A stretch of DNA of 64,000 nt, from positions 736,789 to 800,788 of the forward strand of contig NZ_OMPQ01000009.1 of assembly GCF_900313025.1 (NCBI RefSeq), written 5' to 3'. The position numbers and the translations under genes are program-made. Of the stretch, positions 9,235 through 14,457 are shown one piece after another. The notes beneath the pieces were generated by a model. It worked only from the letters and a program-made list of their open reading frames with translations. It did no database searches and had not been told where the DNA came from. Within the stretch, counting starts at the first letter, position 1. Each line of letters opens with the position of its first letter. The stretch comes from Pseudophaeobacter sp. EL27. Its GTDB lineage: Bacteria > Pseudomonadota > Alphaproteobacteria > Rhodobacterales > Rhodobacteraceae.

Positions 9235-10698
9235 ATGACGGCACGCGCACTGATGATCCAGGGCACCGGCAGCAATGTCGGGAAATCTCTGCTGGTGGCT
9301 GGGTTGGCACGCGCCTTTGTGCGTCGTGGGTTAAAGGTGGCCCCCTTCAAATCCCAGAACATGTCCAACAATGCTGCCGTTACCCCCGAAGGGGGCGAGA
9401 TCGGCCGCGCCCAGGCGCTACAGGCGCGAGCCGCCGGGTTGGCGCCACATGTGGACATGAACCCGGTGCTGCTCAAACCCGAAACCGACACCGGAGCTCA
9501 GGTCATCGTTCAGGGCAAACGACGCGGCACCCAGGCGGCCGGATCCTTCATGCGCGACAAAACCGGGCTGATGGAGGCGGCACTGGACAGCTATCACCGT
9601 CTCGCCGCTGGCGTTGACCTTGTACTGATTGAGGGGGCGGGCTCCCCGGCAGAAACCAACCTGCGCAAAGGTGATATCGCCAATATGGGCTTTGCCTGCG
9701 CGGTGCAGGCCCCTGTTGTGCTGGTGGGCGATATTCATCGCGGTGGTGTCATTGCCCAGATTGTCGGCACCAAAGCCGTGCTTGAGAGCACAGATCTGGA
9801 CCGTATCGTTGGCTTTGCTGTGAACCGCTTTCGCGGCGATATCAGCCTGTTTGACGCTGGGCGAGATGACATCGCTCAACGCACCGGCTGGCCCTCGCTA
9901 GGGGTTATCCCATGGTTTTGGGAAGCCTGGAAGCTCCCCGCCGAGGATATGATGGATATCGCCTCCCGCAAAGGTGGCGCCTGTAAAGTGGTTGTGCCCC
10001 AGCTGGAGCGCATGGCCAATTTTGACGACCTGGACCCGCTGGCCGCCGAACCAGAAGTCACTGTGGAAATTGTGCCGCCCGGGCGGGCCCTGCCGGGGGA
10101 TGCCGATCTCGTGTTGATACCGGGCAGCAAGTCCACCATTGGCGACCTCGCCTATCTGCGCGCCCAGGGGTGGGACATCGACATTCTGGCCCATCACCGT
10201 CGCGGCGGCCACGTGCTGGGGCTTTGTGGCGGCTATCAGATGCTGGGCAAGACCATCGACGACCCCCAGGGCGTTGAAGGGGCCGCTGGTAAGGTTGCCG
10301 GGCTGGGGCTGCTCGACGTGCATACAGTGATGTCGCAGGAGAAACGCGTCACCCTGACCGAGGCCACCAGCCTGGAAGGCGGTCTGCCTGTGCGCGGCTA
10401 TGAAATCCACATGGGGCGCACAACAGGGCAGGATTGCAAAGGCGGCTGGTTACAGATCGCAGATCGCGTCGAGGGAGCCGCCTCCGCAGATGGGCGGGTG
10501 CTGGGCTCTTATCTACACGGGCTGTTCAGCGCCGATAGGTTTCGGGCGCAGTATCTCTCAAGGCTCGGCTATGACAGCTCCACCCAGTATGAAGACAGTG
10601 TTGAAGATACGCTGGACGCCCTGGCAGACCATCTGGAACGACACATGGATCTGGATCAGCTCCTGGCCCTCGCCGCGCCAGTTCCTGCCGGCCCTTAA
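9235..10698 (+). CDS. cobQ: Cobyric acid synthase
   Basis: A 487-residue glutamine-dependent amidotransferase that amidates the b, d, e and g carboxylates of adenosyl-cobyrinic diamide in cobalamin synthesis. The N-terminal ATP-binding domain starts [18 protein letters not shown] and continues [22 protein letters not shown]. The C-terminal triad-type glutaminase domain has the nucleophile in [12 protein letters not shown] near residue 330 and the catalytic-region histidine in SYLHGLFS near residue 425. A GAGGAGAG ribosome-binding site precedes the ATG. I looked for a cobalamin riboswitch in 9045-9234 and saw no recognisable B12 box. It stands apart from other cob genes here. Confidence 0.96.
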
Positions 10699-10885: not shown

Positions 10886-10915
10886 CAGCCAGGTCAGACC
10901 AGGTCAGACCAGGTC
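10886..10915. repeat. Tandem 10-bp repeat over the 3' end of the PopZ-like gene
   Basis: The unit AGGTCAGACC occurs twice head to tail (10891-10910), with half-units on both sides. It covers the last codons and the stop codon (10904-10906) of the minus-strand gene. Because the unit is 10 bp, a gain or loss of one copy on the coding side would change the C-terminal frame. Confidence 0.6.
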
Positions 10916-12046
10916 CTGAGCGGCAAGGGCACGTTGGATCTCACGCCGGACCAGCTTGCGCACATTGCGGGTGATTCTCTCGCCCAGGGCCCCCTGCAAC
11001 TCACTGCGCACAATTTCGGCAACCAGCTCGCGCAGGCTCTCTTCATCGAGATAGCTTTCCTCACCGTTGCCTGCGTCCAGAGCATCCAAAGCGGCGTCGG
11101 TCACGGCCTCCTCGGCCAGAGTGCCCGAGTCAAAACCAGCTTCAGACCCGCCCTCAGATCCGTCCGGGACACGTGACGTCAGCTCCTCTTCGCGCTCGGC
11201 TTCGCCGTCTTCATCAATGTGATCTTGCCATTCCAGGGTTTCAATATTGGTCCCCGCATAGGGATCAGTGGATTGACCGTCCGGCTCCCACTGCCCGCTT
11301 GAACGCGCCACCTTGGCCTCCAGCTCAGCAATCTTCTGCACCACCGCCGAGACCCGCTGACTGCCGTCCAGCTCAACAGGCTGATCCACCTCCGGCTCAA
11401 CCTCATCCCAGTTCTGCTCGGCAACCCTCTCGTCCAGCTGCGGCGAAGACTGTGATGTCTCCTCTTCTGGAGCCTCCACCAGAGCCTCCACCGAAGGCTC
11501 TACGGCGCCAAACAGCGTTGCCTCTGGATCACGCCACGGCGCGGTATCGAGCTGCTCCTCGGCATCGGTGATTGGTTCCTCCAGGGCCTCCGAAGGCTCA
11601 AGGTCAGCCTGCGGCTCGGCATCCGTGTAGCTATCGACGACGGTCTGATCTTCGACGGAATCATGCGGGCGGAAGGCCAAAACTTCGGCAGGATCCAATT
11701 CTGGAGCAACCTCGATATCCATATGGCTCTCGGCCTGCGATGCACTCTCTGCGGGCTCCGCCGCACCCAAAGCCGCATCGCTGTCCATCGTGGCGATGAC
11801 CTCCGGCTGCTCCGCATCATCCTGTGCCCTGTCCGAGACCTCATCGGCCACGCGCAATGCGGGGGTCAGAACCAGGCGCGATGTGGGCTTTGCCAGATCC
11901 AGCGAGGCGGCTTCCCCTGCGTCTCGCTGTGCCTCTGCGCGTTGCGCAGAAACCGGGCGCGGCGCTGAGCGCCCGTCCTCACTCACCAAACGGCGGATGG
12001 AGGACAGGACATCTTCGATTTCGGCCTGCGTTACAGGATCGGACAT
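10904..12046 (-). CDS. Divergent PopZ-like polar organising protein (DUF2497-type ends, long acidic linker)
   Basis: A 380-residue, very acidic protein. Residues 1-26 contain EIEDVLSSIRRLVSED, which closely resembles the N-terminal helix of PopZ/DUF2497 proteins (MEEILASIRRIISED). Residues about 60-325 are a low-complexity Asp/Glu/Pro/Ser/Ala linker. The last 48 residues form amphipathic helices (ESLRELVAEIVRSELQGAL, then ITRNVRKLVRREIQRALAA) in the position and style of the PopZ oligomerisation helices. It lies downstream of pcm and tolC on the same strand, the neighbourhood I recall for popZ in Caulobacter and relatives (pcm-tolC-popZ-valS). Caulobacter PopZ is about 177 residues, so this one is twice as long, mainly through the linker. 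PopZ identity is inferred from motif and context, not from an alignment. Confidence 0.65.
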   Translation of the reverse strand: MSDPVTQAEIEDVLSSIRRLVSEDGRSAPRPVSAQRAEAQRDAGEAASLDLAKPTSRLVLTPALRVADEVSDRAQDDAEQPEVIATMDSDAALGAAEPAESASQAESHMDIEVAPELDPAEVLAFRPHDSVEDQTVVDSYTDAEPQADLEPSEALEEPITDAEEQLDTAPWRDPEATLFGAVEPSVEALVEAPEEETSQSSPQLDERVAEQNWDEVEPEVDQPVELDGSQRVSAVVQKIAELEAKVARSSGQWEPDGQSTDPYAGTNIETLEWQDHIDEDGEAEREEELTSRVPDGSEGGSEAGFDSGTLAEEAVTDAALDALDAGNGEESYLDEESLRELVAEIVRSELQGALGERITRNVRKLVRREIQRALAAQDLV

Positions 12047-12179: not shown

Positions 12180-13592
12180 CTAGTTCTTCCCCAGAGCCCG
12201 CAACACCCGGTCAAGATCCCGGCTCTGGCGGCTGACCTGCGCTGGCGCATCCTTGACCAGATTGTAATAGAGGGTTGGGTCATAGATCTCGACCGCAAGG
12301 CCAAGGTGTTCAGCGGTCAAAAGCCCCTGTGCCTGCAGCAAGGAATAGGCCGCCGTGGCCTGATTGGCCCGTGACTGCACCCGCGCCGTCAACGCATCCA
12401 GAAGATCCTGTTCCGCCTGCAACACATCCAGTGTGGTCCGGGCCCCCAATGTGGCCTCTTCGCGGATACCATCAAAGGCCACCTGCGCCGCCCGTACGCT
12501 CTCATTTGAAGACACGAGACTGGCACTCGCCGCCTCGTGCGTGACATAAGCCGCGGCAACAGATTGGGTCACCGCCCTCTGGGTGCTGAGCAAAACCCCT
12601 TTGGCCGCATCGACATTAGCAATGCTTGTCCGCAAAGCGGAAGCAAGCGAACCACCAGAATAGATCGGCTGAGTAAGTCTCACAGAGGCATTGGAGCTGT
12701 GAAAATCCTTAGAATTGATTCCCCCAAGTGTACCCGTTACGCCCGCACTCAGGTTCACCTGAGGCCCCAGCCCTTTTCGCGCAGCCTCAACCAAATGCTC
12801 TGCTGATTTAACAGAATGTTGCTGAGCTAGGAGGCTCGGATGATTGCGCGCCGCAATGGCCGCAGCAGCTTGCAATGAAGCGGCACGCTTGGGAAGCGGG
12901 GGTTGCCCAGCCACAACTCCGATGGGGCTCCCGACAGCCTGCACATATGAGGCTTTTGCCTCCAGCAGGTTGCCCCGGCTTTCGATAAGGTTTGCCCGTG
13001 CCGAGGCCAGGCGGCTCTGGGCCAGCGCGACATCCGTGCGGGTGACCTCGCCCACTTCAAAGCGATCCTGCGAGGCCTTCAATTCTTCCTGCAGCAAGCG
13101 CAGGTTGTTGCTTTGCAGACGGACTGTATCCTGCTGCAACAACACGTTTACATAGGCCTGCACGGCCCCAAACAACACATCCTGTTCAAAATTCAAGAGG
13201 CTCTGGCGCGTTGCCAGAACAGCTTGTTGCGCCGAAAGCTGTCTCTTACGAGTTGCCCCACCATCAAACAGGAGCAAGGAAAGTTCGACCCCTGAGGTCA
13301 AGCTGGTTGAGGTGTTTCCAGCACTACCGCGCGCGGACCCCCCATTGCTTGCTGTTGCAGTCGTTACCCAATTGATGATGGGTCGCAGCCCCGCAACAGC
13401 CAAAGCTACATTTTCATCCTGAACCCGCAGCAAAGCCCGGTTCTGTTCCAGCAAGCCGCTGGATTTATAGGCGCCAATCAGCGCGTCAGACAGGTTGTCC
13501 GCACTCGCGGATTTTGGCAGCGCAAATGCAAGCGCTACAGAGCCTGCAAATACAAACGTTTTCAACAAACTTGCCGAATTCTTCTTCAACAT
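12180..13592 (-). CDS. tolC: TolC-family outer-membrane efflux channel
   Basis: A 470-residue type I secretion/efflux outer-membrane factor. Signal peptide: residues 1-31, ending KSASA-DN. The body has the two-fold helical repeat of the family, with long coiled helices (FEQDVLFGAVQAYVNVLLQ, then LRLLQEELKASQDRFEVGE) and the typical GEVTRTDVALAQSRLA segment; the second half repeats this pattern (GARTTLDVLQAEQDLLDA). It forms the trimeric outer-membrane duct for inner-membrane pumps that are not encoded nearby. The start at 13592 has AGGG upstream; the frame continues to 13727 but would bury the signal peptide. It lies between pcm and the PopZ-like gene on one strand. Confidence 0.9.
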   Translation of the reverse strand: MLKKNSASLLKTFVFAGSVALAFALPKSASADNLSDALIGAYKSSGLLEQNRALLRVQDENVALAVAGLRPIINWVTTATASNGGSARGSAGNTSTSLTSGVELSLLLFDGGATRKRQLSAQQAVLATRQSLLNFEQDVLFGAVQAYVNVLLQQDTVRLQSNNLRLLQEELKASQDRFEVGEVTRTDVALAQSRLASARANLIESRGNLLEAKASYVQAVGSPIGVVAGQPPLPKRAASLQAAAAIAARNHPSLLAQQHSVKSAEHLVEAARKGLGPQVNLSAGVTGTLGGINSKDFHSSNASVRLTQPIYSGGSLASALRTSIANVDAAKGVLLSTQRAVTQSVAAAYVTHEAASASLVSSNESVRAAQVAFDGIREEATLGARTTLDVLQAEQDLLDALTARVQSRANQATAAYSLLQAQGLLTAEHLGLAVEIYDPTLYYNLVKDAPAQVSRQSRDLDRVLRALGKN

Positions 13593-13778
13593 CGGTCGCC
13601 CTATTCGTTGTCCGCGCCGCCAGCCGCGGAAGTTTTGGTTTTGGCTCAACCCATACATGCTGCAGGGGTCGTCAGTCTTGCTTTTCCCTGCGTCATCTCC
13701 CCCCATTGGTCCGGGCAAAGGTCGCAAGGTAAATTTGCCTGCCTGATTGGTCTCAGGTCAGGCAATGGTCGGTTGCGA

Positions 13779-13803: not shown

Positions 13804-14457
13804 TCACAGAGAAAAGGCAGCAGCCCGTTCAAATCCGGGCATGACTTGGGCGCCCGCATTAAATTCAAAGCGCCAGGAGATTTGGTCACCCTGCTTATAG
13901 CCGACCTTCACTTCGCCCAGGGAGCCCGTCATGAAAATCACCGCAATCCGGCCACCGTCCTTGAGCTGCGCCAGCAGGGACTCTGGTAGATCCTCAACTC
14001 CGCCCTGTACCATGATGACATCATAGGGGCCATGTTCAGCTGCGCCTTCGGTGAGCGGACCAACATGGACAATCGCATTGTCCGCGCCAGCCTCGGAAAG
14101 CTGCGACTGCGCGTCAGCAGACATGATCTCATCTTCTTCGACGCCGATCACCATTTCGGCCATCTGCGCGGCAACCGCGGTGGAATAGCCCAAACCGCAG
14201 CCCACATCGAGCACCAGCTCATCGCGTTGAATGTCCAGCGCATCCAGCATTTTTGCCAGGGTGCGCGCCTCGATCAGGGTGCGCTGCCCACCGAGATCCA
14301 TATTGCGATCAGCATAGGCACCTTCACGCTGTGCAACGGGGACAAAATCCTCGCGTGCAACAGACAGCAGGGCCTCGATGATCGGATATTTGGTCACGTC
14401 CGAAGGACGAACCTGTGTGTCAACCATCAAGCGGCGACGTTCGGCAAAGTCGGTCAT
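13804..14457 (-). CDS. pcm: Protein-L-isoaspartate O-methyltransferase family protein
   Basis: A 217-residue SAM-dependent methyltransferase of the PCMT family, which repairs isoaspartyl damage in proteins. SAM motif I is VLDVGCGLGYSTAVAA near residue 80, with the acidic residue after motif II in VIGVEEDE. Motif IV is YDVIMVQGGVEDLP, which differs from the usual AAP-E-IP. The N-terminus (RLMVDTQVRPSDVT) is typical of the shorter alphaproteobacterial form found beside tolC. The motif IV change could mean reduced or altered activity. The next genes on the strand are tolC and the PopZ-like gene. Confidence 0.88.
   Translation of the reverse strand: MTDFAERRRLMVDTQVRPSDVTKYPIIEALLSVAREDFVPVAQREGAYADRNMDLGGQRTLIEARTLAKMLDALDIQRDELVLDVGCGLGYSTAVAAQMAEMVIGVEEDEIMSADAQSQLSEAGADNAIVHVGPLTEGAAEHGPYDVIMVQGGVEDLPESLLAQLKDGGRIAVIFMTGSLGEVKVGYKQGDQISWRFEFNAGAQVMPGFERAAAFSL

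Follow-up and report, generated by a model that had tools for sequence, protein, structure and literature searches.

Do the Rhodobacterales possess PopZ? Two papers report it as absent or not conspicuous in this order (PMC5182065, PMC6414705), and the second lists Rhodobacter sphaeroides as containing none. The architecture of PopZ has been described as conserved across alphaproteobacteria, with linker lengths that differ by clade (PMC9512792, whose main text does not name Rhodobacter), and popZ was found in 11 of the 13 species of one study (PMC7987155). A survey of titles and the first parts of abstracts, a scope that leaves out preprints and most subscription papers, gave no report of a Rhodobacterales PopZ. 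The question arises again in Pseudophaeobacter sp. EL27, in a window (the whole stretch of DNA analysed here, 64,000 nucleotides of contig NZ_OMPQ01000009.1) in which the original prediction, made from the letters alone, had placed a divergent PopZ in a pcm-tolC neighbourhood. The coordinates of the open reading frame, its N-terminal motif, its C-terminal helix pair and its neighbourhood were all confirmed, and the predicted identity was supported. The main features are:

10904..12046 (-): predicted popZ ortholog, 380 aa, ATG start, stop included
11969..12028 (-): N-terminal helix, residues 7-26, EIEDVLSSIRRLVSED, predicted by AlphaFold2 and aligned by hhalign to the canonical N end
11060..11980 (-): acidic, mostly disordered linker, residues 23-329, set by HMM boundaries, pLDDT mostly below 50
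10910..11044 (-): C-terminal hairpin of helices 3 and 4, residues 335-379 (AlphaFold2 helices 335-350 and 353-379), aligned by hhalign and DUF2497
12180..13727 (-): tolC-type outer membrane efflux protein (PF02321, E 4.8e-51; TIGR01844, 261.7 bits, above cut-off)
13804..14457 (-): pcm, protein-L-isoaspartate O-methyltransferase (PF01135, E 1e-33)
9235..10698 (+): convergent neighbour gene, in the place of valS in canonical loci; presumably cobQ-like from its sequence

Because profile-profile comparison, two-way searches and synteny agree, the gene is regarded as an orthologous PopZ. Very probably it is popZ at the ancestral pcm-tolC-popZ locus, with valS gone from the block, and it has diverged in the Rhodobacteraceae beyond the thresholds used for annotation. 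A role as polar organiser in Pseudophaeobacter would follow from this orthology.

The curated models recognise the protein only faintly. DUF2497 (Pfam PF10691) aligns with residues 327-373 at E 8e-4 and 20.2 bits (cut-off 27), and NCBIfam NF052660 (PopZ_fam) scores 25.2 bits, E 3e-5 (cut-off 125), so neither curated cut-off is reached by the 380-aa ORF. Such values are annotation thresholds rather than biological criteria. Relatives were gathered in an alignment (A1) of 35 rows from loci L003-L058, picked by regular expressions on both ends; near-duplicates and sequences missed by the expressions were left out, several starts were corrected by hand, and L013 and L030, where the gene is split over two frames, are not included. 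At E 0.01 or better, 30 of the 35 members match DUF2497 and 33 match PopZ_fam. A search of PDB with the 380-aa protein gave no relative at E up to 10, and a scan for promoters and terminators showed nothing clear (no promoter-like and two terminator-like sites, the latter against 1.1 expected).

Both ends of the protein are homologous in sequence to canonical PopZ. The comparison set (A2) consists of 30 canonical PopZ from other alphaproteobacteria, hand-picked from 41 distinct sequences extracted from the class, biased to strong DUF2497 matches and trimmed at the Met closest to the motif. A profile-profile check of the ends, proposed with the original prediction, gave Prob 96.7 and E 3.3e-10 at the N end and Prob 95.5 and E 1.6e-8 at the C end (A1 vs A2, local hhalign), while none of 100 column shuffles equalled the real score at either end and reversed profiles scored low. 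In global mode, one of 100 shuffles of residues 1-80 scored at least as high as the real profile, and the conclusion of homology uses the local runs. Comparison of the whole of A1 with the whole of A2 again aligned residues 335-376 (Prob 91.2, E 1e-6). The N end carries the PopZ-type recognition motif E/D-E/D-[IV]-L-x-S-IRR, with 9 of 15 residues identical to a canonical member by BLASTP. In the reverse direction, the A1 profile matched 33 of 241 genomes of the class at E 0.1, four from the family and 29 from outside it. Most of these 29 matches (24) fall inside a canonical PopZ ORF, as judged by coordinates or the canonical C-terminal HMM; two are cut by contig ends, two lie outside PopZ and one is unplaced. 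Of these 241 genomes, DUF2497 itself finds a match in 207 at E 0.01; the A1 profile thus recovers only a minority of canonical PopZ, and the divergence is large.

It might be argued that the popZ slot is occupied by an unrelated acidic protein whose amphipathic end helices became PopZ-like by convergence. Pairwise identity is indeed low (26% over 42 residues at the C end), and the curated models are not reached. Convergence is nevertheless very improbable and is largely refuted by the matching of both ends, independently and in the same order, with shuffled and reversed controls failing in local mode, by the intermediates found at the same locus, and by the ability of the family profile to find canonical PopZ in other genomes. 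A separate true PopZ, the case that the original prediction had set against itself, is also missing: the 380-aa ORF is the sole DUF2497 match in its own genome at E up to 10.

The gene is also orthologous by position. The tolC-type gene and pcm lie upstream of it on the same strand, and the order pcm-tolC-popZ is found in 15/15 family loci and 14/15 canonical loci, all hand-picked from match lists. In canonical loci valS follows popZ in all 15 stretches fetched, less than 200 bases away in 12 of them. The 15 family stretches gave no valS match, 11 of these loci have the convergent neighbour, and the valS of the window's genome sits on another contig. Magnetospirillum gryphiswaldense PopZ, 37.2% identical to that of Caulobacter, likewise has conserved N and C ends, and its gene neighbours one for outer membrane efflux, but there valS adjoins popZ, which is not so at the window locus (PMC6414705).

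A tree of Pcm and TolC, in which popZ was not used, places 28 family loci in one clade with a support of 0.995. It contains 42 of 43 loci (L146, with no TolC match, was dropped); the order of its early branches has partly low support (0.12-0.36), and its rooting on one outgroup sequence is arbitrary. Five early-branch loci retain valS (L258, L259, L260, L274 and L275), and the hairpins of early-branch loci are intermediate or of WLD/WLH type. The large derived group has no valS at the locus and a hairpin of the ELQGxLGERITRNVRKLVRREI type, while its sister loci L245, L246 and L270 have degenerate hairpins. Early or divergent members (L258/G026, L259/G166, L028/G015 and L275/G019) share with the window's gene the slot behind tolC, an SIR- or SLRR-type N end and a C-terminal hairpin; they differ in an adjacent valS, in the intermediate form of the hairpin (WLD type in G019) and in a widely variable total length.

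Presence in the order is nearly universal. With the single protein as query at E 0.01, 189 of 195 genomes of the Rhodobacterales match, although counts across related genomes are not independent. A mixed sample of 60 genomes gave 28 matches: all 12 genomes from the genus matched, counting the own genome, as did 16 of the 24 from the rest of the family, but none of the 24 drawn from elsewhere in the class. When 13 missed family genomes were searched again with the A1 profile, seven matched at E up to 1, five of them at E <0.01; the weak match in G019 is on a different contig from the pcm locus and is probably due to chance. The locus was also sought through pcm in nine genomes with weak or missing matches. 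Eight have a clear pcm, while in G031 the search gave just a 28%-identical match and the locus was not found. An ORF lies directly behind tolC in G012, G019, G028, G066, G169 and G198. That of G019 combines a WLD hairpin with an SIRR-type motif, and that of G028 has a WLH hairpin with no recognised N motif. In G012, G066, G169, G198 and G221 the ends of the ORF behind tolC are weak or unrecognisable, and the first four of these are positional counterparts only, with no homology seen in their sequences. Named carriers among the best 80 loci include Roseobacter sp. MED193 and species of Phaeobacter, Leisingera, Sulfitobacter, Roseovarius and Ruegeria, names that point to the Rhodobacteraceae as the family.

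The protein shares with Caulobacter-type PopZ the order of SIRR helix, acidic disordered linker and C-terminal helices, as well as the pcm-tolC-popZ arrangement and a single copy in the genome. What is new relative to the usual form is a much longer middle part with conserved short motifs. The original prediction had described some 260 residues of low-complexity sequence rich in Asp, Glu and Pro, and far longer than in Caulobacter. The acidic character is real (27% D/E, net charge -0.21 per residue), but HMM boundaries give 307 residues, Pro accounts for just 7.2%, and there are four Trp. The linker is indeed long beside the 78-aa IDR of C. crescentus or the Caulobacterales mean of 93, for which boundaries were defined differently (PMC9512792), and is about 2-4 times the canonical length, a factor that depends on the reference and on the linker bounds. 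Within its own family, however, it is ordinary, at the 69th percentile of 129 linkers of 109-577 residues (median 284). This family set consists of distinct sequences with N >= 12 bits and C >= 40 bits; it therefore lacks members whose N end is degenerate, and many sequences were drawn from the nearest loci. The 30 canonical linkers span 79-197 residues (median 132), and since these include helix 2, the difference in length is underestimated.

In charge the two sets are close, with a mean acidic fraction of 0.25 in the family vs 0.22 in canonical linkers and a mean net charge per residue of -0.18 vs -0.17 (n=129 vs 30). They diverge in Pro (mean 0.09, or 8.8%, vs 0.15) and above all in Trp, which is present in 128/129 family linkers vs 1/30 canonical ones. 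Linkers of the Caulobacterales have a mean Pro of 0.23 (PMC9512792), and a Pro-rich linker is treated here as a trait of that group, not as family-defining for PopZ. Nor is the linker just a spacer, for it contains the following elements, which the original prediction did not mention:

11849..11878 (-): motif RLVLTPALRV, residues 57-66; L58, L60, R65 and V66 invariant in 35/35 A1 rows
11504..11542 (-): motif APWRDPEATLFGA, residues 169-181, seen in part of the family in alignment A1
11303..11365 (-): internal helix predicted by AlphaFold2, residues 228-248, ending KIAELEAKVA; conserved columns 238-244
11276..11293 (-): motif QWEPDG, residues 252-257; E254, P255 and D256 in at least 90% of 35 A1 rows
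11219..11260 (-): motif YAGTNIETLEWQDH, residues 263-276; 91% of the 35 A1 rows have W273 and 86% have D275
11075..11125 (-): weak helix predicted by AlphaFold2, residues 308-324, block pLDDT 56-58 over most of it

With A1 as input, the AlphaFold2 model has a mean pLDDT of 54.8 and a pTM of 0.19; the bulk of the linker is under pLDDT 50, and helices are predicted at 7-26, 228-248, 308-324, 335-350 and 353-379. The internal helix stands out with block pLDDT values of 81 and 76 for residues 231-250, and has no counterpart in the canonical AlphaFold2 model, both models being of low confidence (pTM 0.19 and 0.34). In the family set, regular expressions like RLVLTPALRV, WEPD and LxWxD match 120/129, 107/129 and 100/129 sequences, respectively. 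The RLVLTPALRV motif resembles the canonical VLELT motif by eye, but its descent from the latter is not supported, as 22 of 200 shuffles reached the hhalign score.

A simpler account would make the long linker an unconstrained acidic spacer, its conserved motifs being minor and no special function being needed. The 5-fold variation in length (109-577, n=129) fits such a spacer, as does an average majority residue of just 32% over 296 linker positions in A1. The account is nonetheless rather unlikely: in 38 linker positions the majority residue reaches at least 60% of the 35 A1 rows, and 32 of these 38 lie within the motifs listed above (counts biased upward, the rows having been chosen by end motifs), while the near-constant Trp sets family linkers apart from canonical ones. 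Within the family, linker length correlates with the fraction of charged residues (Spearman -0.30, p 5e-4), and hardly with the acidic fraction (-0.14, p 0.11) or the net charge (-0.03, p 0.77), all with n=129 and uncorrected for relatedness; this lends weak support to a compensation of length by charge.

The oligomerisation domain has been called highly conserved across alphaproteobacteria (PMC9512792), and by analogy the C-terminal hairpin is the putative oligomerisation domain here. W175 and D177 of A2, invariant in 30 canonical hairpins, are absent from that of the window; intermediates exist. Helix 4 has become strongly basic, with a mean charge of +5.0 in the family (n=125) vs +0.8 in canonical sequences (n=30), and helix 3 more acidic (-4.0 vs -1.9), as measured in anchor-defined windows (125/129 family, 30/30 canonical). 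The Pfam match begins only at profile position 27; the weak helix 308-324 lies outside it and is possibly a remnant of PopZ helix 2. Proline-poor linker, Trp-bearing motifs, internal helix and basic helix 4 all distinguish the protein from Caulobacter-type PopZ. In L275 (G019) and L274 (G028), the ORFs behind tolC have 909 and 628 aa, with uncertain starts, and WLD- and WLH-type hairpins, so that a very long linker appears possible without a change of hairpin.

In Caulobacter, the N-terminal region of PopZ binds clients, CpdR shifting residues E7-E23 (PMC11519897), while condensation is driven by the C-terminal region and fluidity is tuned by the linker (PMC9512792). The control of fluidity by linker length, invoked in the original prediction, is thus published for Caulobacter PopZ, where a linker of 156 residues gave fluid condensates and a fitness cost (PMC9512792). 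By orthology, the Caulobacter scheme should hold for the family protein. The C-terminal hairpin would self-assemble; at the pole the N-terminal helix, by analogy the putative client-binding site, would recruit clients such as ParB/ParA, MipZ and the ChpT pathway; and the acidic linker would keep the assembly open. RLVLTPALRV, the internal helix, QWEPDG and LxWxD most probably provide further sites for docking or self-association. The charge-segregated hairpin, with acidic helix 3 and basic helix 4, could attract the acidic linker, and such an attraction could offset the fluidising effect of linker length. We infer that the linker motifs and the basic helix 4 most plausibly contribute additional attraction or docking.

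Candidates for such clients occur in the genome. A full-length MipZ match reaches 385 bits; this candidate rests on its score, because the same model matches all 14 control genomes. A ChpT-type match has 96 bits, and among the control genomes Caulobacter alone matches that model. A ParA-like gene adjoins the best ParB match on C4, which by inference is chromosomal (the ParB model matches 10/14 control genomes). A possible ZitP-like partner is marked by a zinc-ribbon match of 58 bits in a 401-aa frame (G000:C6:123012-123119), from a model that is unspecific for ZitP and matches 5/14 control genomes. Three further ParA-like/ParB-like pairs of G000, on C1 (about 32.4-34.0 kb), C3 (72.7-74.3 kb) and C5 (7.5-9.2 kb), suggest that there are several extrachromosomal replicons, each carrying partition genes of its own.

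The ZitP zinc ribbon is structurally divergent in Rhodobacterales, for which other functions or partners have been suggested (PMC5182065). This, together with the strong remodelling of hairpin and linker, could mean that the protein is a PopZ ortholog by descent whose site of assembly is now the envelope or the cytoplasm, and which has ceased to organise the chromosome origin at the pole. Such repurposing is quite improbable, given that few parts of the family protein are as well conserved in A1 as the N-terminal helix and that the genome has genes of MipZ, ChpT and ParAB type. For R. sphaeroides, a paper whose main text does not contain the word PopZ suggests that OriC1 has a polar factor and MipZ a polar localising protein (PMC6315104). 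As a tentative proposal, the polar hub, with its one site and passive spacer, may have been turned by the Rhodobacteraceae into a multivalent 'sticker and spacer' scaffold, in which Trp motifs and the internal helix, distributed over the long acidic linker, would dock clients or self-associate and the +5 helix 4 of a charge-segregated hairpin would attract the acidic linkers of neighbouring molecules, a much longer linker still giving a workable material state; this scaffold would then be the polar factor of OriC1 and MipZ in R. sphaeroides. The locus offers a specific and near-universal candidate gene where R. sphaeroides was listed as PopZ-less and unnamed polar factors were invoked (PMC6414705, PMC6315104), and the natural series of linker lengths (109-577, n=129) and hairpin types could serve as a test of whether the material state of PopZ is tuned by the linker and the oligomerisation domain.

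Two irregular forms of the gene were also seen. At L256 (G133), the ORF that follows tolC retains the hairpin and an RLVLSPQLRV motif, without a recognisable SIRR helix, and is possibly a hub without the client-binding end. In L013 and L030 (G001) and in L164 (Pseudophaeobacter leonis 306), two reading frames share the popZ sequence; in L164 a 133-aa frame contains the N-terminal motif and a second one, of 389 aa, the C-terminal hairpin, the result of either a frameshift or a sequencing error.
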